A program made the translations under genes and the position numbers. DNA of 64,000 nt from the NCBI GenBank assembly GCA_946699065.1, contig CAMPDV010000128.1, positions 620,001 to 684,000 of the forward strand, given 5' to 3'. The notes beneath the pieces were generated by a model. That model saw nothing but the letters and a program-made list of their open reading frames with translations. It had not been told where the DNA came from and made no database searches. Of this stretch, positions 3,001-64,000 are shown one piece after another; the first letter of the stretch is position 1; each line of letters begins with the position of its first letter. Source of the DNA: Loxodes magnus. Lineage: Eukaryota > Ciliophora > Karyorelictea > Loxodida > Loxodidae.

Positions 3001-4946
3001 AATATTAATATCTACTAGAAAATAAATAGAAAAGGCTTCTTTAGTCTAAAACCTATAGTAAAGAATAGAAAACTGAAACGTAAGATTATAAGAAGAGAAC
3101 AAGCTTTTCTAAAGAGATGATGGGGAAGACTTTCGAATTCTAAAAAAGCAAAGAAACTGAAACTTAAGAATAGGTGGAAGAAGAGAATTTTTAGGGTTGT
3201 TAGAGTGATAAAGAAGAATACTAAATCTAGATTTAAACGATAGAAAGTCAGAACTAAACGTTATAAGATTTATATGGGTAGATGACTTATGAAAATACTT
3301 AAGTGGATAATAGTAAATATGATTAATAAGAGGAAAGCCATCTAACAAGAACAGGACAATCAGAAAAATAAGAGGAAAGCTAGTAACTTGAACGTGATAC
3401 TATTTCTCTGGAAAGGCTTTCATTATAAAGTCAAGAATAATAAGAATTAAGTAAAGAGGATAGTATAAAAATCGATAAATAAGAGTAGAAACTACCAATA
3501 ATTTTTAAATATAGAAGTCTTTAATTAATTCCTAAAAAATTAAAGAGGCCAAGAAACTAATCTTTGTTCTGAGAATTTGATCTGATAGCCGAAAACATTA
3601 ACTAAACAGAGAATAAAAGATAATCAAAAGATACAAAAAAATAGAAATCTAAGAGGAAAGAAGAATGAGATAAGATGATCTTAAAAACTAAAAAGAAAAA
3701 AGAAGTATGCCAATAATCTACTATATCAGAGTAAGAAGATAATTAAGTATCTGAAGAAAATCTTGAAAGCTAAGAGTAAAAAGAAGGAAGTTAGGAAGAG
3801 TAAGAATATTAAGGAAGTATAGAAGATCAAAAAGATTAAGATGAATAAGAAGATTTAGATGAAGAATAAAATTAATCTGATTAAGAAGAATAAGAAGATT
3901 ATGAAGACTAAGATGAATAAAGTGAATAAGAAGATAAAGAAGATTATGAGGACTAATCAGATAAAGAAGAATAAGAAGATTATGAGGATTAAGAAGAATA
4001 AAGTGAATAAGTAGATAAAGAAGAATAATCTGATTAATCAGATGAAGAAGAATAAGAAGATTACGAAGATTAAGATGAATAAGAAGATTCAGAGGAGTAG
4101 GGATATCAAGAAGAAATAGAAGATTTAGAAGAATTAGAATATTAAACTGATTAAGAAGAATAAATAAAGCAAGAAGAATAGTAAGATTAAACATATTAAA
4201 CAGAAGAAGAGGAAAATGTAGAGCAAAAGAAAAAAAGCAAAAAATCTAAGAAGCATAAGAAAACGAAAAGAAATAAGAAAAAAGAAGAATAAGATTAATC
4301 TGATTTAAATGAGGAGATTTAAAAGGAATAAAACTTATCTTTAGAATTGCAAAACATTGAAGATGAAGAAAAAAACATATTTAGTTTTTAGGAAAATATA
4401 TCAGAAGATTTTACAGCTCAAAATCCAGCAAAAGTTAATAAGAAAATAAGTATAGAGTCTTCATAAGAATAAAGGAAACCTGTAAAGATAAATTCTTTTA
4501 TTTATGAAGATTTATCTCCCTAAAAAAGATTACTCTTAAAAGATATTTGGACTACCTCTAAATCTAAATAACTTTAAACAAATGTTCCAATACCTTAATT
4601 TGAAAAAGCTCAATAAAGTCAGCAGACTTTAGAAGAAAGAAAGGTAGCTTCTTTTAAGGAAAGGCAAAGTAGTAAAATAGAAAAATAAAGTGGATAGTGA
4701 AATATAAATGAATTGAATTTGAATACAAGTTAGGAAAAGACGACTAGCAATATGTAATCAAAAACAAAAGAACAAGAACATGAAGAAGATTAAGACTAGC
4801 AAGATAAACTTTTACTAGAAGACGTTGATATCTAAAACGAAACTGATGAATTTATATAAAAATAGACTATAAAGCTAAAAAAGAAGAAGAAGAAGATTAG
4901 AGCTCAAGATTCTTCAAGTGAGAGTTTTGGATAAAGCATAAACTGA
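1..4946 (+). CDS. Multi-pass membrane protein with Cys-rich ectodomain and long Gln/acidic tail (5' partial)
   Basis: The reading frame is open from base 1, so the start lies outside the window. The first 130 codons are Cys-rich (CxxC pairs such as CTW-C, C-x2-C), like the extracellular EGF/GCC-type repeats of ciliate surface proteins. About eight hydrophobic segments follow (codons ~130-480), including a YYWWDIVILYRR motif typical of TRP-like membrane domains in protist Cys-rich receptors. A 23-nt intron (1723-1745, GTAAG...ATAG) shifts the frame from phase 1 to phase 0. The remaining ~1,070 codons are hydrophilic. They are rich in Gln (UAA/UAG), Glu, Asp and Lys, with an almost pure Q/E/D/Y block around 3830-4200. 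The chosen stop is UGA at 4944-4946, followed at once by AT-rich DNA and a second in-frame UGA at 4959. Internal UGAs read as Trp. Function unknown; a surface receptor or channel-like protein is an inference from family resemblance. Confidence 0.7.
1723..1745 (+). other. 23-nt spliceosomal intron
   Basis: GTAAG...TATAG. Removing it joins the membrane domain frame to the long hydrophilic frame (NEDMKDLHQRV...). Without it the protein becomes nonsense-like on one side. Confidence 0.75.
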
Positions 4947-48100: not shown

Positions 48101-50042
48101 CATGTCAAGAAAACATACAATTCCAAATAACTCATACATGAAAGAAATCTTCCAATTTATAGTAAAGGACCAAAGAGTAATTGAAAAAACTGGAGGCCTA
48201 TCGCGCTTATAAATATTATCCTCAAAATATGATAAAATAATCACTTATAGAATTTATGGATACATTTATGAGCGTTAGATCATACACCCTTCATAACAAG
48301 GATTTTTAAACAAGAGATAAACATTACATCAAGTTTGAAATTTATAATCAATTATTGACTTACATAAGAGATGAGGAAGAGGAAAACATCTTCTTGCTAC
48401 TCTTATAGATGTAATAAAATGTTGATACCATTAACGGGGATTTGCTATTTGGACATTTACGTAGAATTAGGTTCCCTCTTGCTCTAATAAATTGTCTTGA
48501 ATCATTTTATTCACATACAATCGTTAGATTTTTTTTGGATGGAACATTATTAGAAATTTGAATTATAGCAATGGGGTTTTACTAGGAAGTTCACATGATC
48601 CAGTTCTTACCATTATCTTCTATGACATTGTAATTAGACATTAGGAAAATTTTTTAAAACAACTTGGTTTTAAAATTTGTGAATGTTTATTTATTTCCAA
48701 AGCTTGGGCAGATGACTTGCTATTGCTATCTAATGAAGATAATATGAAACATCTAATTTAAGTCACATGTGATGTATTTGGTTGAGTTAAATTATCTATA
48801 AATGCTGAAAAATTTGAATATATCTGCTTTAGAAATAAGAACATAAAATTTAGACTTCAATATAAAATTAAATAATTAGCAAATTTAAATATCAAAAATG
48901 TCATCTATCTAGGATATGATATTAATGAAAATGAAAACTATAAAGCTCATTGTTAAGAAGTTTCGATAAAGTACAAAAAATGTTTGAGTGGATCAATTTG
49001 AAAGTTATCTAAATTTCAAATTATTACTCCTCAAAACTTTAAATAGGTTTTTCGACATTTATACTACCGAAGGCAGAGTATGGGTCAGAAGTAATTCCTT
49101 GGGCTATATTTCTGGGTATAAAAAAATGATATAATACTAGCTAAAGAAAAGTAGCAAGATGTGCTTTAAAAAGTCCTAATTCAACTTTTAATAATCTTGC
49201 TTTATTGACTTGAATTGGTTATCTTTTGAATACTATATTGCAATAAGGTTCTTCAAATTCTATAAAACTTTACACTGAATCTTAAAGGGATCCCAACTAT
49301 GATGTAGCATTTCTTTTAACAAAACAAAGAACAGTAACCTTAAATATTTCAAGAATTTAAAATAAATGACTTAACATTTTAAAATAGACCCTTAAGATGC
49401 TAGTAGCAGCAAATAATTCTAAAACAAAATTTGAAATAAAATAGAATAAAAGTTTTATTAAGATGCAATAGGAAGCATGAGTGCTATGCCTACTACACGC
49501 ATTTATTTTGAAGATTAAGATAATAACATTGATTAAAAGAATTCTCCAACTTATACTTACACAATATTAGACAAGAAATGATTCGAGAAATAGCATCGAT
49601 TTACAAATTAAGGACCTTTAATTGCAATTTTAGTATGATTTGAAATTAAGACACTATTAAATAAAACACTCTGAAATTTGCATTTGTGGAGAATAAGATG
49701 CCTGATAACATATTTCTCAATGAGAAGCTCTGCAAGATTTAATAGAAGAAATGAAAGATTTCATGCATTAAGATTTACTACAACTTATAACTTACAACCA
49801 AAATTACATTAATCTTAACTTCTTTCTCTAAGATAACTTTAATAAGTTGACTAAAGAATTAAGTAATTTCATTCAAAGTTGTTTCGCAGAAAAAATTAAA
49901 TTTTAGATCAAAATGATGAACAAGTAGAAGAGTTATTGGAACAATTTGGTTAGTGACCAAGCGAAAAAGAAAATGTTTAAGGAAAATTGAATCAAGATTA
50001 TTCAGATGGAAGTTGCAAAACAATTTTTATACCTATATGAAA
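48101..50042 (+). mobile_element. LINE ORF2 reverse transcriptase, copy 2, with C-terminal zinc knuckle
   Basis: A second RT domain restarts inside the motif-2 region: KSNWKNWRPIALINIILKIW, IIHPSQQGFLNKRQTLHQVW, KHLLATLIDV, AWADDLLLLSNEDNMKH. Thumb sequence follows (NVIYLGYDINENENYKAHCQE). The C-terminus contains CICGEQDAWQHISQWEAL, a partial ORF2 zinc knuckle, and ends MFKENW-UGA at about 49990. It is homologous to, but diverged from, copy 1, so two elements or a tandem duplication are joined here. Several frame changes again indicate decay. Confidence 0.8.
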
Positions 50043-50377
50043 TATGATAAAGAACATTAAATTTTAATTAATTAATTAATATTCTTCTAGTGGTATGAAA
50101 GTAAAATATTTTAATTCTCTTGTTTAAAGTTTAACCTTTTTAACAAATCTATGGAATAAATCTTAAGTATTTCCTTAGTGAAGCAAATTATAAATAAGTT
50201 GCTATTAATATTAGTAATTAATTGTAATATTTTAAAATAAGCGTAATAATAAGTTTAATATTTCCAGTTTAGTAATTTTAAAACTAAATAGCAAATATTA
50301 AAGATCAACATTTTAGAAGGAAAATTAGTTTTTATAATGTTTAAATCATAATTTAATATAAGACTTCTAATAAAAAC

Positions 50378-50449
50378 GCCGACTAAGGGACTTGAACCCT
50401 TGACCACCAGCTTAAAAGGCTGGCGCTCTACCGACTGAGCTAAACCGGC
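50378..50449 (-). tRNA. trnK-UUU: tRNA-Lys (UUU)
   Basis: 72-nt cloverleaf on the minus strand. Acceptor stem GCCGGTT/AGTCGGC (with two wobble pairs), D arm GCTC...GAGC with GTCGGTA loop, anticodon stem CCAGC/GCTGG with loop CTTTTAA (anticodon TTT), and T arm AAGGG TTCAAGT CCCTT. No intron. The transcript side ends in GTTTTT, a pol III terminator. The internal A box (TAGCTCAGTCGG) and B box (GGTTCAAGTCC) are intact. The gene sits between LINE debris and repeat R4. Confidence 0.96.
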
Positions 50450-50756
50450 TTATAAACTATTTTTCTGAATGCTTTAAATAATAATTTAAAATGCTACACG
50501 CTCTCTAACTTATATTATCACTTTACTATTTTATATACATAATAATAGCTTAACTGTCACCTTTGAAAATAACTTACTTCTACAATAATTAGTAAAATGA
50601 ACTAGTAAAGCCTAACATAGATACCTAGTTTAAAAAGGATTATATATAGAATATTATATAATATTAAGTACCAAATAGCAATAAATAGATAAAGCATGAT
50701 ATTAATTGAATGTTAGAAAGAATATTAAATTAATTATTTAAAATAGTTAAAAAATA

Positions 50757-51058
50757 ATTGAAAAGATGGTGGGAACTGAGAATGACCTTCGTGACAACAC
50801 TTTCTGGTTTTATGGCTAGGAACAAGTTCCTTTCCTGTCGCTGAGAAAGTCTCTGATCAGAGTCATTTTCTGAAGGGAACGCTGTCTTTGAGATTATCCG
50901 CTCTTGGTAGGGGCTTGAAGCCTGGCTGCTCATAGCGATGGAGCTCCCTAGCAACTGTGCCTGGAGCACAACAGGATATCCCTGTTATTCCATAAAAAGA
51001 GAGCGTCGGGTCGTGCAATCGGAAAGGAGTTTCCGGCCCAAAAACTTTCTTAGTTGAA
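50757..51058. repeat. Dispersed GC-rich repeat R4, copy A
   Basis: About 300 bp, much richer in GC than its surroundings, with a second copy at 61441-61741 (same orientation, roughly 90% identical by eye). It contains local hairpins at the right end (AACAGG/CCTGTT and CGGAAA/TTTCCG). On the minus strand a frame is conserved between copies (RKLLSDCTTRRSLFMEQ, SSIA-x2-SQASSPYQERIISKT, FPSEND, LFLAIKPES), and the one length difference is exactly 3 nt. Both coding and structured-RNA (SINE-like) readings are possible. Confidence 0.75.
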
Positions 51059-51163
51059 ATTAATTAAAATAGTTAAAAAGGCTTTCCTTATTATATATTT
51101 AATTCCATACACTCTTAAGAAATCATTTTTATTTTAAATTAAATTAATTTAAAATAAATATAA

Positions 51164-51220
51164 ATGGCACCCAAGAAGGAAGCTGCACCCACTAAGGGAG
51201 CACCAGCCAAGAAGAAGTGA
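51164..51220 (+). CDS. 18-codon Lys/Ala/Pro-rich micro-ORF
   Basis: ATG at 51164 reads MAPKKEAAPTKGAPAKKK and ends in UGA at 51218-51220. The ORF is GC-rich (codons such as GCA CCC, AAG AAG) in otherwise extremely AT-rich DNA, and the bases before ATG are a long A/T leader. The sequence looks like the N-terminal tail of a chromatin or ribosomal protein (H1/H2B or eS25 type), but nothing recognisable follows in any frame. It could be a genuine microprotein, a first exon, or a truncated retrocopy. Confidence 0.45.
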   Translation: MAPKKEAAPTKGAPAKKK

Positions 51221-53530
51221 TTTTAAGAATAAAGATAAACTCTTAATTTTCTTAATTTCCTTAAAAAAATTAAATTAATAATCTTAAGTTAGTCTTTTTG
51301 TTTGAGTTTGAAAACTAGCATTAGCTATATTATACTAAAGGGTGAAATATAAATGTGAACTGAATTTTATAAATTTCCTATACAAATTTATTAAGATAGA
51401 TATATTAAAAAAAAATTCTATTTATTTTTTAACTAATAAAAATACTTTTAGCGCACTTAGATAATTTATTTAAATTGTATTTAATTTATTTTAGTAGTTA
51501 TTTATTTATTAAATTCATATTTATAAAGAAAATTAAATAAAAATGATTTAAAATTGAAAATCTTTTTATTTAATGTTGTCAATTTTAAAAATTTATGCTT
51601 ATTAATGTTTTACTAATTAAGATAATTCTTTATCAACTAAAAGAGTTTATATTATGCTGCTGTTATTTCAAAAATTATAGTATTTAATTATAACTCTCTT
51701 GCTATTGAATAAGTTAAATCCTGTTTAATATTTTAGAATTTATCATCTATCTTTTAAATTATTTTCTTCCAGTCAACTATTTTTTAACATAATCTTAGTT
51801 GCTTTGTTTTTCATTTTTTATATAAAAAGTATCAAGCTTTCTTTTTTATATTTTAGAACACAAAAAAAGGAATGAAATTCTAAATATCTTAATTGAAGTT
51901 ATCGCAATTTTATAAATGAAGCTTTATTCCTTATTATCTGATTTTTTCATTATTCAACCTAACAATTTTAGCTTAATAACAACCAGATAAATAGAGTCAT
52001 GAGCAATAGTTTAATAACCTTACTAAAGTTATAGAAGAAAAGACAGTATTTTATTTAACAAAGGTAATAATAAGAGAAAATAGTTTAAGCAAATAAATAT
52101 TCTTCCTTTTTACTATCTTTCATTTTGAAAACTTTTAATTTGCGTATATTTTTTAGAAAATGATTAAATTAGAATACTAAGAAGAAAATTGAGCTTATAT
52201 AATATTTATTTAGATTTATTAAACCTTATTTTTCTATTTACCTGTTTCAATAAAAATATTATAGTAGATGACTAAAGAAGATCTTAACTACTTTTTTACC
52301 AATTCGATCTTTAAATCTCTAGAGATTTTATTTATTACTACTTTATTAAGATTTTTATACAAAAGTTAATAAACTTCTCTCTTAATCTTTTTATCTGGTT
52401 ATATCTTAAGTTCAAATATCAAGTTATCTGATTAAATATTTCATTATTTTATTAAATTTCCCTTTGCTTTCTACTTAAGAGTTAAATTGTTTAATGATTT
52501 AGCATTTTTTTAATCTAGTATTCTAGAATAAAGTTTTAGGATTAAAACATTTTACCTTTTAAACCAATCTGGTTGAAAGAAATATTTAAATTAAAAGGTA
52601 TTTGTAGTTATATGCTTTGGAGTATCATAACCTAAAGTCAATATATGAGGTAATTATGCTACCTAACAATTTTTTTAAAAACCTTGCTAAAAAAGAATAA
52701 TTAACTATATTCAAATTTTTCATATAAGTAGTCTTTTAACAGTTAAATTCTAATAAACTAAAAGTGCATAATAATTAGATAGTTGAATTTAATATTCTCA
52801 ATTAAAATTAAAATATTAATTAAAAATATTAGATGAATTTACTAAATTGAATTCATTAGATTTAATAACAAAATAAGCTGCTAAAAGCAATATATTTTTG
52901 ATAATTTATCTTTATTTGAGTATTAAAAGAAAATTAATATAACTTCAATTTTAATTTTATCTAATTAAGATATTTAAAACTTTTTTACCGAATTAAATAC
53001 TTATAAATTTAACTTTGATAAAAAAAATAAAATTTATTTTTAGATTTTGATGCTTGCTTAAACATTTATTGCTTTTTCTTGTATTTCTTATCAAAACTTA
53101 TCTAATAATTCAATTTTTGTTAATTATATCTTTTTTATTTCTGAAAAGTTTAGTTCTATCCAGTGCTATTTTTATTTGGAATAACTTTTGCTCATTGATT
53201 TTCTAAATCTGTTTCTTTTTATAATTTCTTTATTTTGCTTTATTTTCAGAAACTTGGTGTATAATTTCATTTTTATAACTTTTTCCCCGAAAAACGAGAC
53301 TTTGCTTATATATTCTTAAATGGGTCGGATAGTTTTGAGTTTAATGTTAAAAATGATTTTCAAAATGATATTCTCTGATTTTATTCTTAATTCTGTGATA
53401 TCGATTATATTTTTTATTAATGATATAAACTTTTAAGTAAGTTTTTCGACATCCAATTTTTAAGTTTATAAACTGACATTTAAATTTCAAATTTTCATTT
53501 ATATTTATTATTATTAAAATAATTAAGTTT
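51221..53530. other. AT-rich spacer, no gene seen
   Basis: 2.3 kb with long T and A runs. No frame on either strand has a convincing coding bias, and no repeat match within the window was found. Confidence 0.4.
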
Positions 53531-53534
53531 GGCA

Positions 53535-54474
53535 ATTTTCGAGGATTTTCACCTCTTCATGCCGATTCCAGATTGCTCTGGGATTAAAAAAAGGTTTATA
53601 AGTCTCTACTTCTCTCCCACCCATTTTTTGTTGTTGTCTCTAACTATATCTTCAGTTCAGCAAAGGTTTCTTCCTATAAATATTTCCAAGCTAGTTCATG
53701 AATAGTCTCTCTCTAATTTTCCTTTGTTATAGTTGCTTCATTTTCTTTTGCTACGCTTGCTGCTTCCTCTATTTCTCCAATACTTGTTCTTAAAGTTTAG
53801 GAAATATTCACATCTTCTTCATAGGTATTTCTCTGAATTACAGTAGTAGCACTTTTTAACTACTTTGATTGACTTTGCCTTCTTCTTCTTGTCAATTACC
53901 TCTATCAGCATTGGATCACCTCTTTGCTCATTAAGTTTCATTTGCTGTTGCAGCTTCTCTTCTATTTCTCCAAGCTTGTTGCCCAGCTCCGTCTGTTTCT
54001 ATTGCTAATTTTAGGATTAGCAGTTCTGATTCTGTGATATGTTCCAAAATGCACTTAATTCCCTTTCTTAGGACATAAATCTTGACTCGATTTCCTCTTG
54101 CTTGTTCAGATTCTCCATTAGCCTGTCGTCGTCCTTCTTTAGTCTCTTGACCTCTCCCTGGAGGTTTAGTACAACTTGGATGAGCTGTTTCATGCTCATC
54201 TGGTCAGAAGGATTAAATTCCGACACCTCCTGGTGTAAAGCAGACTTTGCATGCTTTCTATGCTTCTCTAGTGAAGTCGGTGTTTCAGTATGCTTGCTTT
54301 TCTGAGCCTTCTTCTGTTCTTCTTGTTAAATTCCAGGTTGTTAAGATGTTAATATTAAGAAAAAGGTTAAAGTTATGAAGAAGACGACATCCAAGAAGTG
54401 GTTTCCTGCTTCCTCTCTTCCTTTTTGGCTTAGGAAGAGGTGGTATAGAAGCTTTTCCTGAACCCTTCAACCAT
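53535..54474 (-). mobile_element. Non-LTR retrotransposon ORF1 (gag-like), GC-richer family
   Basis: Minus strand ATG at 54474 (MVEGFRKSF) is similar to the R2 ORF1 start (MAEGLKKSF). After one frame change near 54340 the protein continues QEEQKKAQKSKHTETPTSLE, a coiled coil (LIQVVLNLQGEVKRLKKDDD, ELGNKLGEIEEKLQQQMKL) and a knuckle-like CYYCNSEKYLWRRC, where the His position is Tyr. The RNA-strand end carries a CCAGAG...TCTGG hairpin, then GAGGTGAAAATCCTC. G+C and codon use differ from the other ORF1 copies, suggesting a separate lineage. Confidence 0.65.
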
Positions 54475-54854
54475 TTTATTTATTCCATTTATATATTTAT
54501 TAAAGTACGTTTAGCTTTAAGAAATCAGATATCAAGACAAATTAGAAATTATTTATTCTGCAAAGATCATTTAAAAATTAAGAAACTTTAATCTTCCTTC
54601 AGTGTTTTGGAAAAAATTGATTTAATTATTACTTTTTCTTTCAGTATTTCAGCTGCTAGAATTTTATGAATTGCTTGACAAAATCTAAGGATTCTAAGAA
54701 GTTAGTTTCTTGCATTTAAGTTAAAATGTCAAATTTGAATAAGCTTAATTTTACATTTTCGAGTCCCAATTACTCCTTTGTAGCATTAATTGAACATATG
54801 TCATTATCTATCCTTAATCTTAAATATAAATTATTTCAAAAGAACAATATCATA

Positions 54855-55890
54855 TTTAGGTGTAATTCTACATCAGAAGAAAAATTTTAATTTCCATTGT
54901 AGAGAAGTCGCGTTCAAGTATTTAGATACAACGAAAAAAGCGGTTTTTTACTAATGAGATATAAGAATGTGTCTCCTTGACATTTTAAAACTGTATGCAG
55001 ACCTTTTACACTAGCAGAACTAGTACCATGGTGTATTCAAAAAGGAATAACTGGAGTTTTGAATATAATTGGGTCAAGCATGAGAATGATTTCAAGAAAA
55101 GTATTTTAAGCAGCAATTTCAAATTTTAACGAATCATGTTATATAGATTTAAACTAGCTACCTTTTAAGCATATTATGGCAATAAAGCTTTTTAAATTCT
55201 TTTATAAAATGAAATAAGAAAGTATTTATTTTCCAAAATCGATAATAGACTCTCTTTTCATTACCAATTGGAAAAAAAGGATTTCAATACTATGAACAAG
55301 TTTATCAATTATCAGATCTCTATAGGATCGATCTTTAGAATTCCTAGATTAGTACAAATTAAAAAATTAACTAAATATATAAGAGATATAATACAAGATT
55401 ATTTCTATAATACAGCTATTCAAAAGTTTAAGAGAATGAAAACAATTAAAATAAATACTGAGCAGTTTAGTAATCTTAACCAATTTCCAGTAATTACTTA
55501 CACTAAGATGAACAAAGAACTAAGACAAGAAATTATAAGTATATATATACTTAGAACCCAATCCTATAATTTTTGAAAAGATCTTTAAGATCGTCAGTAT
55601 CCTATTGATAATCCCTACTGTATGTGTGGAAAATGAGATACATTCGAGCACTTTTTTAAATGTATATATTCTAATATAAGAGATTGACTATCGTAAAAGA
55701 TTGGGAATTATGATTTAAGACGCCTTATATTATATTATCAAGAACCTTTAAACTCATTCCAAAGTTTTATTTGAGATATTTAGATTTATAAATAAAAATA
55801 TTTCACAAGAAACTTATGTCAAGAAAACTAGAATTATTAGATATAAAAAAAGCAAAAAAGGAAGAAACAAAAGTTGAGATAATAACAAGA
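54855..55890 (+). mobile_element. LINE ORF2 3' fragment with C-terminal zinc knuckle
   Basis: 54855-55225 duplicates 47690-48070 at the nucleotide level (RT thumb region) with scattered indels. From 55268 a cleaner frame reads MEKKDFNTMNKFINYQ, EIISIYILRTQSYNFW and IDNPYCMCGKWDTFEHFFKC. The last is the canonical ORF2 C-terminal CxCG...H...C knuckle, better preserved than in the copy at 49690. It is 5' truncated, as expected of incomplete reverse transcription. Confidence 0.75.
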
Positions 55891-55899
55891 GTAATTAAA

Positions 55900-56564
55900 A
55901 ATTGAAGATATCTTGATTATAATTAAAAAACATTTTAAACATTTACTAATATCAATAATTGAAGGAAGTAATTCTTACAGTTATAGATGTCAATAATTAT
56001 TTCAGTTTAAAAATTTTACATATGATGAATTACCTTAGATAATATGAGGGTGCTCAGTTATGATTGAGGTGAGGTTGGAATTAGTGAAGTAACAGTTTAT
56101 GAACTTTGTATTTCGTAAGTTACAAAATTGTAAGTTAGTGTTAGAAAAATTGCAATTGGTGAAAATACTGTCAGATAAATCTGTATTAATTAGATTTAAA
56201 TTATTTAGATAAATTTAGTTGAATTTTAAATTAATGAAATTTAAGAGAGTAATTGCATTAGATTAAGCTTACTAAGCCTTAAAGTTATCTTGATAATTCT
56301 ATAATTTTTACTAACTTTTACTAGTTAAGATAACTAAAACTATATATCATTATTATCTTTCAAAACAGACTTATTCAAAGGATTTTACAACATGAATTAT
56401 AAGTCTATATTCTATTACTCAAGAATTAATAGATTTGATCAAAAATTATGCTATTAAAGTTTATATTTTATAGTTAGAGATGTTTTTTATGCTTATTTAT
56501 TATAATGTTTTACTTTTAGCTAAACTTAATAATATTTTATTAAATATCATATAAAATGGATGTC
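55900..56564. other. Spacer with a Val/Ile-rich periodic reading
   Basis: At 56070-56280 a plus frame reads VGISEVTVYELCISQVTKL and similar, alternating hydrophobic and polar residues with recurring GTAAGTTA-like motifs. Probably chance or a decayed repeat. No gene is called. Confidence 0.25.
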
Positions 56565-56960
56565 GGCAGCGTCAGAAAAACTACTAGGTAATCTGGTGCA
56601 GTGTATACTGCGTTGCGAGTAATCTCGCACTAGATGCCACCACGGGAAGGGTGGATAAGCTCCGTTGAGACATGCCTAAAATACCCCGAGAATTCTCTCT
56701 AGCAGTATGAAAGTTTGACTGACGGGCCTTCTAATTACCGACTTAATAACTAATTCTTATTTGGACCTTATTCAAGAAAACTAAAGCATTTGACTCAAGA
56801 TTTAAGAATAATTTTAATAAGAAGATTCCCCATTTGGAGAAGCTGACTGACTCATTGGACTTCTAGAATTTTAACAAGAAGCATGAGAACATTTTTCTTA
56901 ATATTAATAATGAAAGAGCTGCGCGCCAATGAGGGGCTACGCGCTCTATAATCATTTTGA
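56565..56960 (+). repeat. SINE-like element with serial hairpins and a GCGC end hairpin
   Basis: The first 200 bp are GC-rich and contain three consecutive perfect hairpins: GCAGT-GTAT-ACTGC, TGCGAG-TAAT-CTCGCA and CCACC-ACGGGAAG-GGTGG. About 170 bp of AT-richer sequence follows, then AAAGAGCTGCGC...GCGCTCTATAATC, shared with R3 copy A but with a different inner stem. The structure suggests a transcribed RNA or a ribozyme-like LINE/SINE 5' end; no known family was identified by eye. Confidence 0.55.
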
Positions 56961-57754
56961 TTTATTTAAGTACCCAAAAATTTTTGTTCTTCTTGAATCT
57001 TTTACTTTATTATCCTTCTGCTAATTTACATTTTATTCTACTGAAAATATATATTAATAAAATAGTGAACTTACTACTCCGTCAGTAACTAACCCTAAGA
57101 CTACTATTTTAAGTATGTAAAGAATTCGAGAATTAAATCTTGTGTCAGTATCTTAGAATTATTGAGATCCTATAATTAAACTTAATTTCCTAAAACTCTT
57201 GAATTTACTTAGTATTAATAAGTTAAACTTTATTACTCATGTGAATTCTACTATCTTACCTACTATATTAATTTTGTCAAAACGATAATTATTCTTTCGT
57301 ATTCTTTATTTTATCTAACTTATTTATGTAATTACCTTAATGATGAATATTACTTCTTAAATTTTCTTTGAAAACTTTTAAAGTTTGCTAGTAAACCAAA
57401 CTTAATAGAGATCTAAAAAGCTTTTGGCTATCATTTAGCGATGCTATACAACTTATATAATTATTTGATTTCTAAAAATATTTTTATTTCAAACATCTTA
57501 TATAACTGTTTATCTATAAGTCATTATGGATATTTTTTAATACTTTCATGCTTTTATCTGATAATGCTACATTTTATATTTCTTCAGGTCTTATATTAAA
57601 TTCTTTCTTAGAGCAAGCAATTTTTTTGTAAGCTGATATACTGTTTTGAGGAATTATAAACAAGAAATGTATCCACTTGGAAACTATTTTGCTAGACACT
57701 ATTATTAATCGTATATAATTTACTAATCATCAAAATTCATATCATAAATCTAGT
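56961..57754. other. AT-rich spacer, no gene seen
   Basis: No supported coding frame or repeat. Confidence 0.4.
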
Positions 57755-58045
57755 TTAAATAACCACTATCAATCCTTCCAATGTCATTTACTGAAACTCT
57801 GATACTTCCAAGTATTCCATTTGCGAAGATCCAACCAAAAATCAGAGTATAAGCTAAGATGAACAAGATCAGAGAGGAAAAAAATACCATTAAAGTTGAA
57901 AGATGTCAGATATTAAGGTATCTTAGAGCATCACTCCAATAACGGCCTTATATAAGAAAATATTTTCAAAGAGATACTATCACTAAGGAGGTTTTCATTG
58001 AAAAATTTATTAAAATTTTAAAAATCTTATTAAATTAATTGAGCA
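57755..58045 (+). repeat. Repeat R3, copy B (diverged)
   Basis: It aligns with 45690-45990 through shared blocks (CAATCCT-CCAA, ACTGAAACTCTG, GAAAGATG-CAGAT, TCTTAGAG-AGCA) and ends ATTGAGCATTCAATAATC, a decayed form of the GCGC hairpin. Confidence 0.5.
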
Positions 58046-59078
58046 TTCAATAATCTATATTCTTTTAATCGAAAAAATTAGAAAACTATTAAAATTATAA
58101 ATATTAAATAAATAGTCCAAAATATTTAAAAGTTTTAGTAAAAAATAAAATATTTCTTTATAAAATTATCCTTTCCTGTAGCGAGAAGGTACCTAGAGTC
58201 TTTAGTTTTAAATTAGTTAATTTGCAGATTTACGTTCATTCTATATTGGGTTTCTTCTTCATAGTTTTCCATTTCAAATGGATAAAAGTTAGTAAGATAT
58301 TTTTAAATCTTCATGATGATTTATACAGAAAAAAACAAATGTAAGTAAAATTTTATTTTAAACTAAAAGATTAAAAATAAATTCTTTCCAGCTTTCTTTG
58401 TCTGTTATCTTTTTTTATATATTTCTATTTTTATCATGATTCTCTTTTTCCTTTCGCTTTCTATTTTCTAGGTAAAATTTTTCACGTGGTATTTTTTTAT
58501 TTTCAGATTTTTTAATTTTGAAACCATTTTTTGTTGATTATTTTTAAAATTATTTTCATTTTTTATTTAAATATTAATTTTATTCTATTGAAAAATAGAA
58601 TTTTTAATTCTTTATAGTTTTCTCTTTTTAAAATTTTATCTTAAAAGATTTAAAAACTTTGTATAAATTAATCTTTGAATAATTAATTTTCTTATTATTT
58701 TTATTTAAATAAATTAAAGGAATTTTAGATTTTTATAAATTAAGTTTTAATTTTTGTTTTAGATTACTTGCATTTACATTTTTATCAATATTTTTGCAAG
58801 TTTTTTTTATTTTAAAGATAAAAGTTTATTATTTTTTGATTTTATCGTATTTGCTTTTAAAACTTTTTTTAAAATGGTTTTTCATTTTTTTAATTCCTCT
58901 ATCTTGATTTACATTTTTATTTAATTTTTTGTTTATTTTCTGTTTTTTCTTTTTATTTTTAATCATTTTTTAAATAATTTCTTGATATTCTAATTTTTTA
59001 TTTTATTAGCATTCTACTATTATTTTTTAAAGTGACTTGAAGTTAAGTAAATAATCATTTTTAGCTAAAAATAAAAAA
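58046..59078. other. AT-rich spacer, no gene seen
   Basis: About 1 kb, very T-rich on the plus strand. Upstream region of the intact ORF1 that starts at 59079. Confidence 0.4.
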
Positions 59079-59840
59079 ATGGCAGAAGGCCTCAAGAAGA
59101 GTTTTTTGCAGGTTCCTTAGATAAAGGAGCAAAAACTAAAGACTTCTAATTCTTCATCCATCACGTCTTCTTTAATAAAATAATAATCTTCTTAATCTTA
59201 ATAACCTCCAATAGTTGAAAATTTAAGACAATTTTAAATAAAATAAGAACTAAATAAACATAAACAGAATAAAACTAATAATAAAATATTAACTTTCTTC
59301 CTAAATCGAGACCAAGTAACTATAGAAAATAAGAGAATCCAAAAACGATAAAAACAGACAAATGAAGAATAATTATTAATTGAAAATCTTTTGAAATCTG
59401 TATGTATTCTGTAAGAAGAAGTAAAAACATTAAGATAAGAAAACAAAAAATTATTAGAAAAAAGTTAAAATACTGAAGAAAGATTAGTCAAATAAGAAAT
59501 CGAAGTATAGCAACTTGGACAAAAAGGAATAGAACCTCTAATAAAAATGGAAGTAGAAGATGATAGGCAAATAGAACCAACCAACATTAGAAGGATTCTT
59601 AAGAGATGTTACCTGTGCTAATCAAGATTCCATAATTTCAAGAGTTGCAAGATATACAAGGAAAAAATGAAGAGAAACAGCGAAGAAGTCTGAAGAGAAT
59701 TAACAAGAATTTATGTAACGATGGAAGGAAGAATTTACAGAAGAAGAATTTTCCATTCGAGTCCAGAACTCCAAAAAATTGGTTACCCGAAATTTTATTT
59801 TAAGTATCCAGGAGCGATCATTGGATGTCAGTGGAAATGA
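59079..59840 (+). mobile_element. Intact non-LTR ORF1 (gag-like) protein of element R2, 253 aa
   Basis: An uninterrupted frame of 254 codons from ATG 59079 to UGA 59838. The N-terminus is MAEGLKKSFLQVPQIKEQK. A Gln/Ser-rich part (SSLIKQQSSQSQQPPIVE) precedes a coiled coil (NLLKSVCILQEEVKTLRQEN, KSQNTEERLVKQEIEVQQL). The zinc knuckle is CYLCQSRFHNFKSC (C-x2-C-x4-H-x4-C). A basic C-terminus follows (EELTRIYVTMEGRIYRRR, KFYFKYPGAIIGCQWK). After the stop the sequence passes through a short conserved hairpin region into (TTA)n at about 59880. No reverse transcriptase follows. An RNA-binding nucleocapsid-like role is known for LINE ORF1. Confidence 0.82.
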
Positions 59841-59879
59841 GGTTGAAATATCTCAAAGCCACAAACACTTTAATTAAGT

Positions 59880-60670
59880 TTATTATTATTATTATTATTA
59901 ATTTTTTATCTAGTTCTTTTATATACTTTAAATGTACGAAAGTTTATATATATTTTTAATTCTAAACAATTTTAATATAAATAATAGCAAAAATTAATTC
60001 AAGCTGCACTACGCTTATTAGGCTAGCATCTTTAAATTAAATCGTATTTGTTGTTATAAAATTTCTGCTGGTTGCTGCGAAGTTGCTTATAGATTTTTTA
60101 TTCTTCTTTTTCTTGGACTCAATCTTCAAGGTGAGTCTTTCCAGCTCTATTAATTTTGATAAATGGTTAGCTAGAGCAGATTACTACTAATTTATACTTT
60201 ATATAGTTTTTACTTTTATATGATGCTATATTATACTTTTAAAATATTCATATCATTTTCGAGTTTTCCTTCTCAATTAGACTTGTTGGCAATATTTATT
60301 AGTAACTGATTTTATTTTATTTCTACAGAGCCATAAATAATTTTTCTTATATAATAAGATAGAAATCATTCAGTGTACTAATAACTCTGATTAAAGACAT
60401 AAATTAGTAGTAAAACATAAAATGATGAAATGTAAATTGGGTACTTTAAGAGTACACTTCATCTTAATAGTATATAACTAGAGAAATGTTACCAACAATA
60501 TGACAGAAGTTAGATAGAGGATAGTAATAAATAGGAGTTATAAAAAATAAGTAGTTTATGTATGAAATAGAACATAAAATAAGGTTATAAAGACTATATA
60601 GTATATTACAATATATTAAAATTAATAATATTGAAGTATTAGTTTATAATAACAATAAATTTATTAAATT
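59880..60670. other. Microsatellite tail then AT-rich spacer
   Basis: Begins with a (TTA)n run that closes the R2 element. The remainder shows no gene. Confidence 0.45.
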
Positions 60671-61211
60671 AGCCTGGTACCACCATTGTTTGCTTCACCA
60701 CGAAAAATAAAGAAACCAAATTTAATTATTAAATAGGCTAGAAATGTTTCTAGCTTCATCTGGTCTCTTTGATTCTTATCTTCTTCTCTCCGTTTTTATA
60801 ATCGAAATTGATTGCCTTCACTCTTTAAACTCTTGTAATTCTTCCAAAGGCTGGAGTTAGAAGGAGTTAGAGAACATTCCAATATTTGTGTCAAATGATT
60901 CAATTAGATTAAATTCTTCTAATAATAGTTATTTTTTATCTCAGTCATATCTTTGTTGTTTTCTAAATTCCTTATCAGAATAGCGACATGAAAAATCAGG
61001 ACAACTCTGAGATCTGGATTTCAATTCCATCCAGTTCCCTCTCGTACTGATAGAGAGAACCCTCAGACAAGTAAGGCTTATCACACAATGGGCCCGTCCT
61101 TACTTTTTTGTGGTGGCATCTAGTGCAAGAGTAATTGCAATGCAGACATGATTGCACCGGATCATCTACTCGGTCGACTAGAAACTAAAATCCATTTTAA
61201 AAATGAATTAT
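60671..61211 (-). repeat. Dispersed repeat R1, copy B
   Basis: Matches 33716-34256 throughout, including the Cys cluster on the minus strand (CLHCNYSCTRCHHKK) and the helical frame (CPDFSCRYSDKEFRKQQRYD). Differences are mostly single substitutions plus indels near 61030. Both copies share the TAAAAAATGAATTATAATAATA end. Confidence 0.8.
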
Positions 61212-61440
61212 AATAATACTAGATAAGCATAATTCTTATATCTGCTTTAATCATATTGTTACATTTATATATTTAAATTAAATTAATTATCTATTAGCAA
61301 TTTAAAGAATAAGAGCAACAGTATCATAGTAACATTTTATCACTTTATTACATTTATAAGCATAACTAAATCAAACTAACTAATTACATTCTTACTTTAC
61401 TATTATTTAAACTAAGTATTTTATAATTCATTAAACATGC
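61212..61440. other. Spacer between repeats
   Basis: AT-rich, nothing recognised. Confidence 0.4.
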
Positions 61441-61741
61441 ATAGAATAATTGGGGAGATGGTGGGAGCTGAGAATAACCATGACTAAACTTTCTGGTTTT
61501 ATGGCTAGGAACAAGTTCATTTCCTGTCGCTGAGAAAATTCCTGGTCAGGGTCATTTTCTGAAGGGAACACTGTCTTTGAAATGATCCGCTCTTGGTAGG
61601 GGCTTGAAGCCTGGCTGTTTATAGCGATGGAGCTCCCTAGTAGATGTACCTGGAGCACAACAGGATATTCCAGTTATTCCATAAAAAGAGAGCGTCGGGT
61701 CGTGCAATCGGAAAGGAGTTTCCGGTCCATAAACTCTTTTA
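61441..61741. repeat. Dispersed GC-rich repeat R4, copy B
   Basis: Matches 50757-51058. Here the conserved minus frame reads RKLLSDCTTRRSLFMEQ, then SQASSPYQERIISKT and FPSENDPDQEF. The hairpins at the right end are kept. Confidence 0.75.
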
Positions 61742-62199
61742 GTTGAAATTAATTAATTAAGCACACATAGAAGGGGAGATTAGATCATTACATGTTATCT
61801 TTCTATTAAAAAATTACTAAAGCTATTTAAAATATTAATAGAAAGGATATAAAATCAATACTTCTAAACATATTTTAAGAATCAAAGAACTATTATCAAG
61901 AAATCTAATACATCAGCAAAAAACTCTAACTATTATAAAAATATTAGCTAAATTAGCAATTCCAACATCTCCTTAATAGGAATTACTTTTTGATTAATAA
62001 AGTAAGAAAGTTAGCAAAGATCTTAAAATATAATACTAGTATGCTTAGTAAATTTAAAATAATTAAAGTATCTAAATCAAAAATTAATTAATAATCAAAT
62101 ATTTGTTTAAGATAAATATTTAAAATTGTTATTTCCTTCTCTGCTCAAAAATCACACTCTATAATCAAAAGCTTACTTAAATTATTTACTTCCTAAAGT
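61742..62199. other. AT-rich spacer downstream of the intron array
   Basis: On the minus strand GT...AG pairs continue but the 3-nt spacing is lost. The gene feeding the array may continue here, but I cannot read it. Confidence 0.35.
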
Positions 62200-63828
62200 A
62201 GAAAAATAGCTACCTAGTATAAATAATCTGATATTAATCATTACTATAACATTCTTTAATCAATTATATTAGACATTACTTTCTTTTCAAATCAATCATT
62301 ACCCCCTATAAGTATCACTTATATTACATTCTATATCATTTTATTACTCACTAAATTTAAATATTACAAGCTCATATTAATAAATACTAATTTCAATAAA
62401 ATCAAAGCCATCTAATTATTATTTCTTACAATCAAAAATTAAAAAGATACCTTAAGTAGATTCTTACCTTCTGTGGTAACTTAATACCCTCTAATAATAA
62501 TTAAATACCATCTGTAATAGTTTTAAATACAAACTATAAATAAAAAATATCCTACATTCTATAAGCATTTAAAATATCTTACCATCTATGAATGTTTCAA
62601 ATGTCTTACCCTCTATATAAAATATTTTACTCCCTATAAATGTTTAAAAATCTTACATTCTATAAATATTTAAAATATTTTACTAACTATAAATGTTTAA
62701 AATATCTTACCTTATATAAATATTGAAATATCTTACATTCTATAAATATTTCAAATATCTTACAATCTATGAATGTTTTAAAAATTACTTACTCTCTATA
62801 ATATTTCAAATATATTACCGACTATAGTTATTTAAAATATGTTACCCTCTATAAATATCTAAAATGTCTTACCATCTATGAATGCTTAAAATATCCTACC
62901 CTCTATAAATATTTCAAATATCTTACTCACTAAAATTATTTAATCTATCTTACTCCCTATAAATATTTCAAATATCTTACAATCTATAATCGTTAAAAAC
63001 ATCTTACGATCTATAAATATTTCAAATACCTTACCCACTATAATTATTCAAAATATCTTACTCCCTATAAATATTTAAATTATCTTACATTCTATAAGTA
63101 TTTAAAATATAGTACCCCCTATAGATATTTTAAATATCTTGCAATCTATCAATATTTTTAAAATTTTACTAACTATAAATATTTTAAATACCTTACATTC
63201 TATCAATACTTAAAATATCTTACTCCCTATAAATATCTAAAATGTCTTACATTCTATAAGTATTTTAATATCTTACTCCCTATAAATATTTAAAATATCT
63301 TACATTCTATTTTAAATGGAAATACCATCTCATTTTAATTTTTACCTCCTTTATTTATTTTTTTACTCACTATACATTAATTAATTTACTTTCTGGATTT
63401 ACTATATTACCAGCTTAACATTATTATTTTACAATCTTCTTTAATTTTTACATTCTATACTTAAGTTTTACTTTCTTTCTTAGTATTTTTACAATCTTAT
63501 TTGATTTATTACATTCTTAAATTTAATTCTATTACTTTCTGGCTTTAAGGCATTACTCACTTTTATTAAATATATTACATACTTTTTTAAATTTTACCTC
63601 CTATACATTTATTCTTAACTTTGCTTGAAGTCATTTTAATCTTTTTCTAAATTTTCTTACTTTCTCCTATTTTTGATTACTTATTACTTTCTAATATTTT
63701 ATTAGTATTTTACGTTCTATTATTATATTATTTACCATATTATTTTCTCATTATTTCATAAGCTAATCTTTTATTAATTACTTTCTATCTTTATTTTTTA
63801 CCAACTATATTTAATCTCATTTTCTTAC
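62200..63828 (-). repeat. Array of about 55 tandem intron-like units separated by 3-nt exons
   Basis: Read on the minus strand from 63828, the sequence is a chain of GTAA...TAG/CAG/AAG units 14-26 nt long separated by single triplets (AAC, AAA, AAT, ATT, CTG, TGA, GAG, ATG, GGA, TTA, TGG, ATC, AGG, TCG ...). In the core (about 62420-63310) most units follow one 24-nt consensus, GTAAGATATTT-x5-ATTTATAG. The DNA there is a ~27-bp minisatellite of 24 nt plus one variable triplet. On both sides the units differ completely in sequence, yet GT, AG and the 3-nt spacing are kept. Exceptions: one unit begins GC (about 63166), one junction has no exon (about 62752), and spacing is irregular between 63560 and 63770. 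The unit matches the form of bona fide introns in this window. Confidence 0.8.
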
Positions 63829-64000
63829 CTCCTAAAATTTATATTAATTACAACGCTCAAACTTTAGGTCTAACTAAACTTCTTCTTGCTTCTCCATTTT
63901 ATTTATTCTTTGTTGATTATCTAATTTTTCTTCTTCTCTATAAAGTTCATAAAAATCAGGGTCGATTCCTTCTAATCTTTCTACTTTCTATTTAAGTTGT
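63829..64000 (-). CDS. Coding exon feeding the intron array (partial)
   Basis: The minus frame reads QLKQKVERLEGIDPDFYELY, REEEKLDNQQRINKMEKQEE, VQLDLKFERCNQYKFQE, with strong coding bias, charged and helical. It ends at GAG immediately before GTAAG at 63828. The gene begins beyond the window. Function not recognised. Confidence 0.6.

Follow-up and report, generated by a model that had tools for sequence, protein, structure and literature searches.

Chains of putative single-codon exons between tiny introns in genes of the ciliate Loxodes magnus

Can spliceosomal introns divide a gene into exons of a single codon each, repeated dozens of times in succession? The question is posed by one end of a 64,000-nt stretch of Loxodes magnus DNA (the whole of which is referred to here as the window), where ~60 tiny predicted introns of the form GT...AG lie on the minus strand between positions ~63,851 and 62,283, with 3-nt exons between them (Table 1). 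The introns were located by a dynamic-programming split that rewards GT and AG and in which exon length earns no bonus; over positions 64,000-62,000 of the minus strand it returned 68 exon lengths, 56 of which are exactly 3 nt. In the final scoring the array comprises 61 introns and 54 three-nucleotide exons in 1,581 bp, and 60 dinucleotide-preserving shuffles gave on average 1.18 such exons and at most 4. This upholds an earlier, sequence-only reading of the window, which had proposed about 55 introns with single-codon exons between them and had named chance phasing in a simulation as a result that would refute it: dinucleotide shuffles do not reproduce the 3-nt spacing.

The same reading had described a coding exon that ends at 63,829 and is followed by an unbroken chain of units. 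The coding exon exists and ends at 63,852 instead, and the chain is present with exceptions, namely exons of 27, 21 and 6 nt in the 5′ part of the array. Two introns proposed by the automatic split (63,984-63,969 and 63,889-63,870) were disbelieved, as both fall within the open coding exon. The minisatellite core has the composition that had been claimed for it, with a period of 27, 28.7 copies and a unit that is mostly a 24-nt intron plus a triplet; one core unit without its TAG appears as a zero-length exon in the split. Flanking units unrelated to the core were said to keep its spacing, and they do so: the non-repetitive 5′ part (526 bp) carries 18 three-nucleotide exons, whereas shuffles of it average 0.53 and never exceed 3. 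The 3′ part includes two longer stretches of 21 and 44 nt, which are putative exons from the automatic split, and the irregular units that follow are probably the end of the gene. Elsewhere in the 64-kb window there is no further run of at least three 3-nt exons.

Table 1. Parts of the array gene at the end of the window, in window coordinates
Feature	Position	Strand	Basis
3′ part of coding exon, RING finger plus ubiquitin-like gene	63852..64000	minus	frame reading; Pfam
First intron of the array (phase 1, 20 nt), GTAA...TTAG, following the ubiquitin-like domain (UBL)	63832..63851	minus	split; paralogs agree on place and phase
First triplet, GAG	63,831-63,829	minus	
Array 5′ part: non-repetitive GT...AG introns of 16-24 nt, mostly 3-nt exons	63307..63851	minus	conserved in 13 copies
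Minisatellite core: ~29 copies of a 27-bp unit, 24-nt intron GTAAGATATTTTAAATATTTATAG plus one triplet	62544..63310	minus	
Array 3′ part: non-repetitive units, GTAT/GTAA donors, 3-nt exons	62283..62530	minus	automatic split
Further intron-like units, irregular spacing	62136..62282	minus	split

Several other elements lie in the window. A 27-bp tandem repeat with an 81-bp higher order, AGAAGATTAAGAAGAATAAGAAGATTA, occupies positions 3,821-4,163, with no run of 3-nt exons there. An interspersed, GC-richer element of ~300 bp, SINE-type in look, recurs beside or inside array loci (window ~61,450-61,770 on the minus strand; L044 ~4,000-4,260; the end of L047; within the L030 array), and its window copy has no Rfam match at the gathering threshold. 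An Rfam search of positions 50,000-64,000 returned nothing beyond one tRNA gene (50,377-50,449, minus strand; RF00005, 74 bits).

To establish how widespread such chains are, the whole genome (705,730,643 bases in 7,843 contigs) was searched for a two-unit chain, GTAA..TAG NNN GTAA..TAG NNN GTAA, with the reversed pattern as control. The search, of a kind that the earlier reading had proposed, found 32,476 chains with a 3-nt spacer (675 in the reversed control) and 25 with a 4-nt spacer (control 96), counts that include overlapping matches and to which the high-copy family of the window gene and repeats contribute many. With a 6-nt spacer there were 123 matches (control 64), and most of the 100 listed are in four satellite contigs; these contigs (C381, C826, C4082 and C4445) carry satellite arrays with GTAA...TAG at 6-nt spacing that are apparently unrelated to the 3-nt chains. 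Single units numbered 52,438 against 13,107 in the control. On contig C1, 55 single matches were listed and ~54 are expected from the genome-wide control rate; because the two agree, ordinary genes, as represented by this one contig, seem to have no excess of 3-nt exons. A pattern with a GTAT donor, which largely avoids the 27-bp core, matched 122 times against 5 in the control, and among the places listed the matches fall, by eye, into ~28 sequence families, a count that includes a few members of the window gene's own family. At individual loci, three-nucleotide exons again exceed the shuffle maximum (C16, 91 against 10; L047, 80 against 6; L048, 18 against 3). The arrays would be present in the macronucleus, as the assembly agrees in size with the published 706 Mbp macronuclear assembly of L. 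magnus; canonical IESs have not been found in Loxodes (PMC11441545).

Six largely non-repetitive arrays permit the lengths of exons and introns to be compared. Of their 498 exons, 413 are 3 nt long and 32 have zero length, and the remaining 53 are divided between multiples of three (28) and other lengths (25). The corresponding introns are spread almost evenly over the three classes of length modulo 3 (144/141/128), with no depletion of multiples of three. The quantity that is fixed is exon length, not intron length. Array introns measure 16-26 nt, with a mode of 20-21 in the six arrays and 24 in the core, although the split favours 16-27 nt and their shortness is therefore partly by construction. 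Among the 413 units the donor is GT in a fraction of 0.99 and GC in 0.01 under a split that required GT or GC and an AG acceptor, and GTAA is favoured. A spacing of exactly 3 nt, with 6 nt very rare, suggests that units multiplied as an intron plus a triplet; 3 nt would be the smallest exon that keeps the frame.

These figures also separate the arrays from two known arrangements of introns. Recursive splicing has zero-length exons (AG|GT) as its hallmark and leaves nothing behind; the arrays have 32 such joints against 413 three-nucleotide exons. At one locus (L048, C15:607501-610000, minus strand) many exons alternate between 3 and 0 nt and introns reach 35 nt, and its zero-length joints may be recursive-splicing points or signs of longer introns. 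Introners are sequence-similar introns that spread to many unrelated sites and genes. By contrast, the arrays are local and most of their non-core introns are unique: between 3 and 16 of the 46-94 introns in each of the six arrays have a similar partner in their own array. Few similar introns are thus present within six of eight arrays, and likewise in the small array of L048 (2/18), unlike that of L072 (10/16). The 27-bp unit itself is repeated locally, in tandem, within copies of a single gene family, as judged from a subset of the contigs that carry it.

If the dinucleotides at the ends of the units are used as splice sites, they should be better conserved than the rest. For 35 non-core introns in three copies of the window gene, GT or AG changed in 9/278 comparisons, against 117/818 for intron bodies, and the triplets changed faster than the bodies (34/148); the comparisons were of C128, the window copy, with C10 and with C15, so changes shared by the latter count twice. 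Across 13 copies, 7/88 GT/AG columns are variable compared with 60/327 body columns (p 0.02). Of these seven, four are apparently alignment slips; the rest reflect a pair of donors that five copies have lost together and an acceptor missing from a single copy. Length is constrained in a complementary manner. Intron bodies have 15/327 gapped columns, with four further insertion columns in introns, and array exons have 0/108, with one insertion column at the 27-nt exon of L054; coding sequence has 0/511.

Core units were examined separately by aligning them with the four splice positions masked and then comparing the match at GT/AG with that of the body. GT/AG is better kept in C128 (0.974 v 0.872), C10 (0.994 v 0.941) and C15 (1.000 v 0.932), and also in an old copy, C4 (0.926 v 0.801, p 6e-10). 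In C6 the excess is gone (0.721 v 0.737 and 0.702 v 0.780). This broken copy is a pseudogene, with an in-frame TGA in the coding sequence, a frame shift in the UBL and a replaced RING histidine, and as a natural control it is the strongest single argument that the splice sites of intact copies are in use. The copies are relatives, and tests on them are not independent. Taken together, the comparisons indicate purifying selection on GT, AG and the length of exons, with drift in the intron bodies and in much of what the triplets encode as sequence. The view that constraint acts on splicing, and not only through repeat homogenization, is supported by the non-repetitive arrays elsewhere, the specificity for a 3-nt spacer, the conservation of GT/AG and its loss in the pseudogene. 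The array introns are very probably spliced in vivo.

Two explanations that do without single-codon exons can be weighed against these data. One is that the array leaves as one or a few long introns, with internal GT and AG acting as decoys or as steps of recursive splicing and no triplet retained. The zero-length joints (32/498 in the six arrays) are of the kind that it predicts, but they are a minority, and 3-nt exons persist with conserved length. Furthermore, introns of L. magnus have a mean of 19.3 bp and a mode of 17, with 93% at or below 25 bp (PMC11441545), and selection would not be expected on internal sites that are skipped. We consider this explanation very improbable. The sequence-only reading had left a choice between one-codon exons and an array that is silently removed from mRNA; the former is the best reading, and regular triplet spacing with an open frame in the window gene makes the latter a poorer fit. 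The other explanation, which appears scarcely credible, is that an unspliced AT-rich minisatellite contains GT and AG by chance and that the flanks are old, diverged copies of the repeat. The core is indeed a minisatellite, and C4 demonstrates that units can diverge widely. However, arrays at other loci are largely non-repetitive, intron length varies where exon length is fixed, intact copies, unlike the pseudogene, conserve GT/AG above the remainder of the unit, and shuffled sequences fall far below the observed number of 3-nt exons.

The genes that host the arrays have features in common. In the window gene, the coding exon begins beyond the window with an ATG at contig position C128:684362, and as 511 nt separate this ATG from the first array intron, that intron is in phase 1. 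Its product matches PF00240 (7.2e-5) and PF00097 (4.6e-4), both just under the Pfam cut-offs. A DNA search with the first 363 coding bases gave 344 candidates, and the 40 that were scored, the window copy included, all match over the full length with 88-100% identity. Among those scored, six are on C156 (43524, 158488, 323584, 439931, 503490 and 619585), and their separation by ~64-165 kb suggests large segmental repeats. Another copy, L061, has ~850 bp of other sequence near the array start and a TGA within the RING-UBL frame.

Nine other array genes were examined, five of which have a phase-1 first array intron just behind a UBL, a few to ~15 residues from the end of the UBL match in the automatic split. 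L047, L068, L071 and L072 combine a UBL above a Pfam cut-off with a RING recognised from its motif or from the translated frame (under the Pfam cut-off or outside the Pfam scan), and L069 combines a protein kinase (PF07714, 3.6e-50) with a UBL (7.8e-12). With the window family, a phase-1 first array intron behind a UBL recurs in six gene groups. In L048 frame reading indicates a RING, and there is a UBL-type match above cut-off (PF11543), L050 has a RING upstream of a short array with nine 3-nt exons, and C16 is a protein kinase with no UBL recognised upstream of its array. The first exons of C16 and L048 were mis-split, so that the array phase printed for them is unreliable, and L070 is counted among the nine with its host gene not assigned. 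Two further candidate loci, L049 and L073, were rejected, having three and one 3-nt exons respectively. TAA and TAG occur inside open frames, and TGA occupies positions at which the motif of kinases has tryptophan.

Whether the spliced array is translated can be approached by following the coding frame into it. Over the clean prefixes of their arrays, 14 RING-UBL copies contain no TGA in this frame beyond the first codon, but 54 and 60 in the two remaining frames; the copies are related, seven being long and seven contributing 14 exons or fewer. When the triplets of the 14 copies were permuted and pooled, the mean was 7.7 TGA and zero was never reached in 2,000 permutations. The absence is nonetheless partly a matter of triplet composition, because no single copy is significant when triplet order is permuted (fractions 0.07-0.55 in six copies of the window family). 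Over ten arrays, phase 1 has 7 TGA against 10.2 after permutation, which is not significant (p 0.14), and phases 0 and 2 have 24 and 33. Unspliced arrays carry 7-13 (C128), 3-4 (C10) and 4-9 (C15) TGA per frame. When spliced to the far end, the coding frame retains two in C128, two in C10 and four in C15, the latter after a 5-nt exon; frame breaks are found in C15 and L054. The five copies that share two lost donors retain a 69-nt exon that is in frame. For C128 the predicted peptide is WVETYEIMRKQYEQRENQNDFKQRVLKKYQKYSEMRDE and for the old copy C4 it is WKEIFKEMRLLYEKNENLDEIKKRALKKFWRYFEIRDE; the cores of sister genes would give tails such as TVTVTV.. (L055), DDDYDYDDD.. (L058) and YYYDYYYYYYD.. 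(L060).

Codon usage lends modest support to translation. Pooled junction codons have a mean log-probability under upstream coding usage of -3.81 in phase 1, -3.95 in phase 0 and -3.89 in phase 2, compared with -3.71 for the upstream coding sequence itself. Pairing each triplet with its true neighbour adds codon signal (p 0.035; three controls, 0.17, 0.30 and 0.66). Taken singly, phase 1 is the most similar to coding sequence in 3/6 arrays, and neighbour pairing is clear in 2/6, one of which is L070, whose phase, like its host gene, is not assigned. Among four lineages no frame-specific protein constraint was found, as amino-acid identity and BLOSUM scores are about equal in all three frames. 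In C4 a GAA exon creates a T|GA codon; the corresponding codon is TGG in C10 and L056 and TAA in C128, a single case that proves nothing. Queries with 39 aa of array peptide and with 66 nt of spliced sequence matched no spliced retrocopy, a null result that is uninformative. Given splicing, we regard translation of the array as likely, on evidence that is moderate and weaker than that for splicing.

A rival to translation is that the array is spliced as part of a 3′ UTR. The first junction of the RING family is always T|GA, a possible stop, and it is T|GA in 14/14 RING-UBL copies tested and in L071. The array would then be an untranslated region collapsed by splicing, perhaps because UGA terminates translation only near the poly(A) tail. 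Indeed, UGA in L. magnus is either tryptophan or stop, encoding tryptophan if far enough upstream of the poly(A) tail, and 3′ UTRs are short with a mean of 53 (PMC11441545); the lack of frame-specific protein constraint is also as this explanation would have it. Yet L068, L069, L072 and L047 have a codon other than TGA at the first junction, though in L047 a TGA follows a few codons later in the array, and the spliced array would exceed 150 nt, more than the stated mean for 3′ UTRs. The exclusion of TGA from the coding frame past the first codon, with the caveat of composition, the resemblance of pooled phase-1 codons to coding sequence and the in-frame 69-nt exon of the copies that lost donors also argue for reading through. 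An untranslated array accordingly appears unlikely.

A translated array would have points in common with two known kinds of coding element. In coding minisatellites (VNTRs), protein length follows repeat number. Repeat number would likewise set protein length in the array, which has a repetitive core and an open frame when spliced, but its 5′ and 3′ parts are non-repetitive, its unit is mostly intron and 27 bp would add one residue only. In common with microexons, the array has putative exons as short as 3 nt between spliceosomal introns, and frame and conservation suggest that they may be included in mRNA. Two isolated 3-nt exons occur in each lipS gene of Dactylellina haptotyla (PMC5639578), whereas the arrays contain tens to about a hundred that are nearly consecutive.

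The earlier reading knew of no described system of this kind, and a search of the open literature agreed: among the titles and abstract openings listed, none describes runs of single-codon exons, although an earlier mention may have escaped notice. The array introns resemble the tiny introns reported for L. magnus in being GT...AG, AT-rich and ~16-25 nt long, and differ in their mode of 20-21 or 24 and in lacking the relative depletion of multiples of three; chains or 3-nt exons are not mentioned in the passages of that account that were compared (PMC11441545). Introns of 15-16 nt, known from Stentor (PMC9505925), and the isolated 3-nt exons of D. haptotyla are the nearest cases that the search brought up. 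Stwintrons (PMC8469720) and recursive splicing share with the arrays closely packed splice sites and some zero-length joints, but array units lie side by side and are not nested, most of them leaving a triplet. The core also multiplies introns together with a bit of exon, as in intron gain by tandem duplication (PMC4974935, PMC3443670).

The best explanation, and one that we find reasonably likely, is a chain of spliced and translated single-codon exons that gains or loses one residue per unit. Specifically, ~60 tiny spliceosomal introns would interrupt almost every codon in the 3′ half of the gene. The short-intron spliceosome of the ciliate would remove each intron of 16-26 nt singly and join the 3-nt exons. 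As the introns would be in phase 1, each codon would be assembled across an intron, taking its first base from the end of one triplet and its other two from the start of the following one, and the RING-UBL frame would continue through the array with UGA read as tryptophan. Because the unit is an intron plus one triplet, its tandem gain or loss would add or remove one amino acid and never shift the frame. Gain and loss of core units may thus have given sister genes their differing simple tails, at one residue per 27 bp, the result being a tail behind the UBL that varies in length and composition. The sequences themselves demonstrate the spacing, selection on the splice sites, the constraint on exon length, an open frame in the window gene and the recurrence of arrays behind UBLs; splicing in vivo, translation and growth of the array by slippage or unequal exchange are what we infer from them. 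A more tentative extension, which we think rather unlikely as it stands, is that UBL and array form a module behind RING and kinase domains that generates diversity without risk to the frame: with nearly every exon a single codon, any pattern of exon skipping would stay in frame, and one gene could give rise to a very large set of C-terminal tails.

One intron per codon corresponds to more than 300 per kilobase (cf. PMC3174169), and standard RNA-seq mappers and gene finders would probably overlook such exons. If the interpretation is true, L. magnus has a spliceosome able to join long runs of 3-nt exons, where there would presumably be no room for exon definition, adjacent machines or marker complexes upstream of the junctions. 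It would also provide a route by which tandem repeats can expand within a gene while its frame remains intact.
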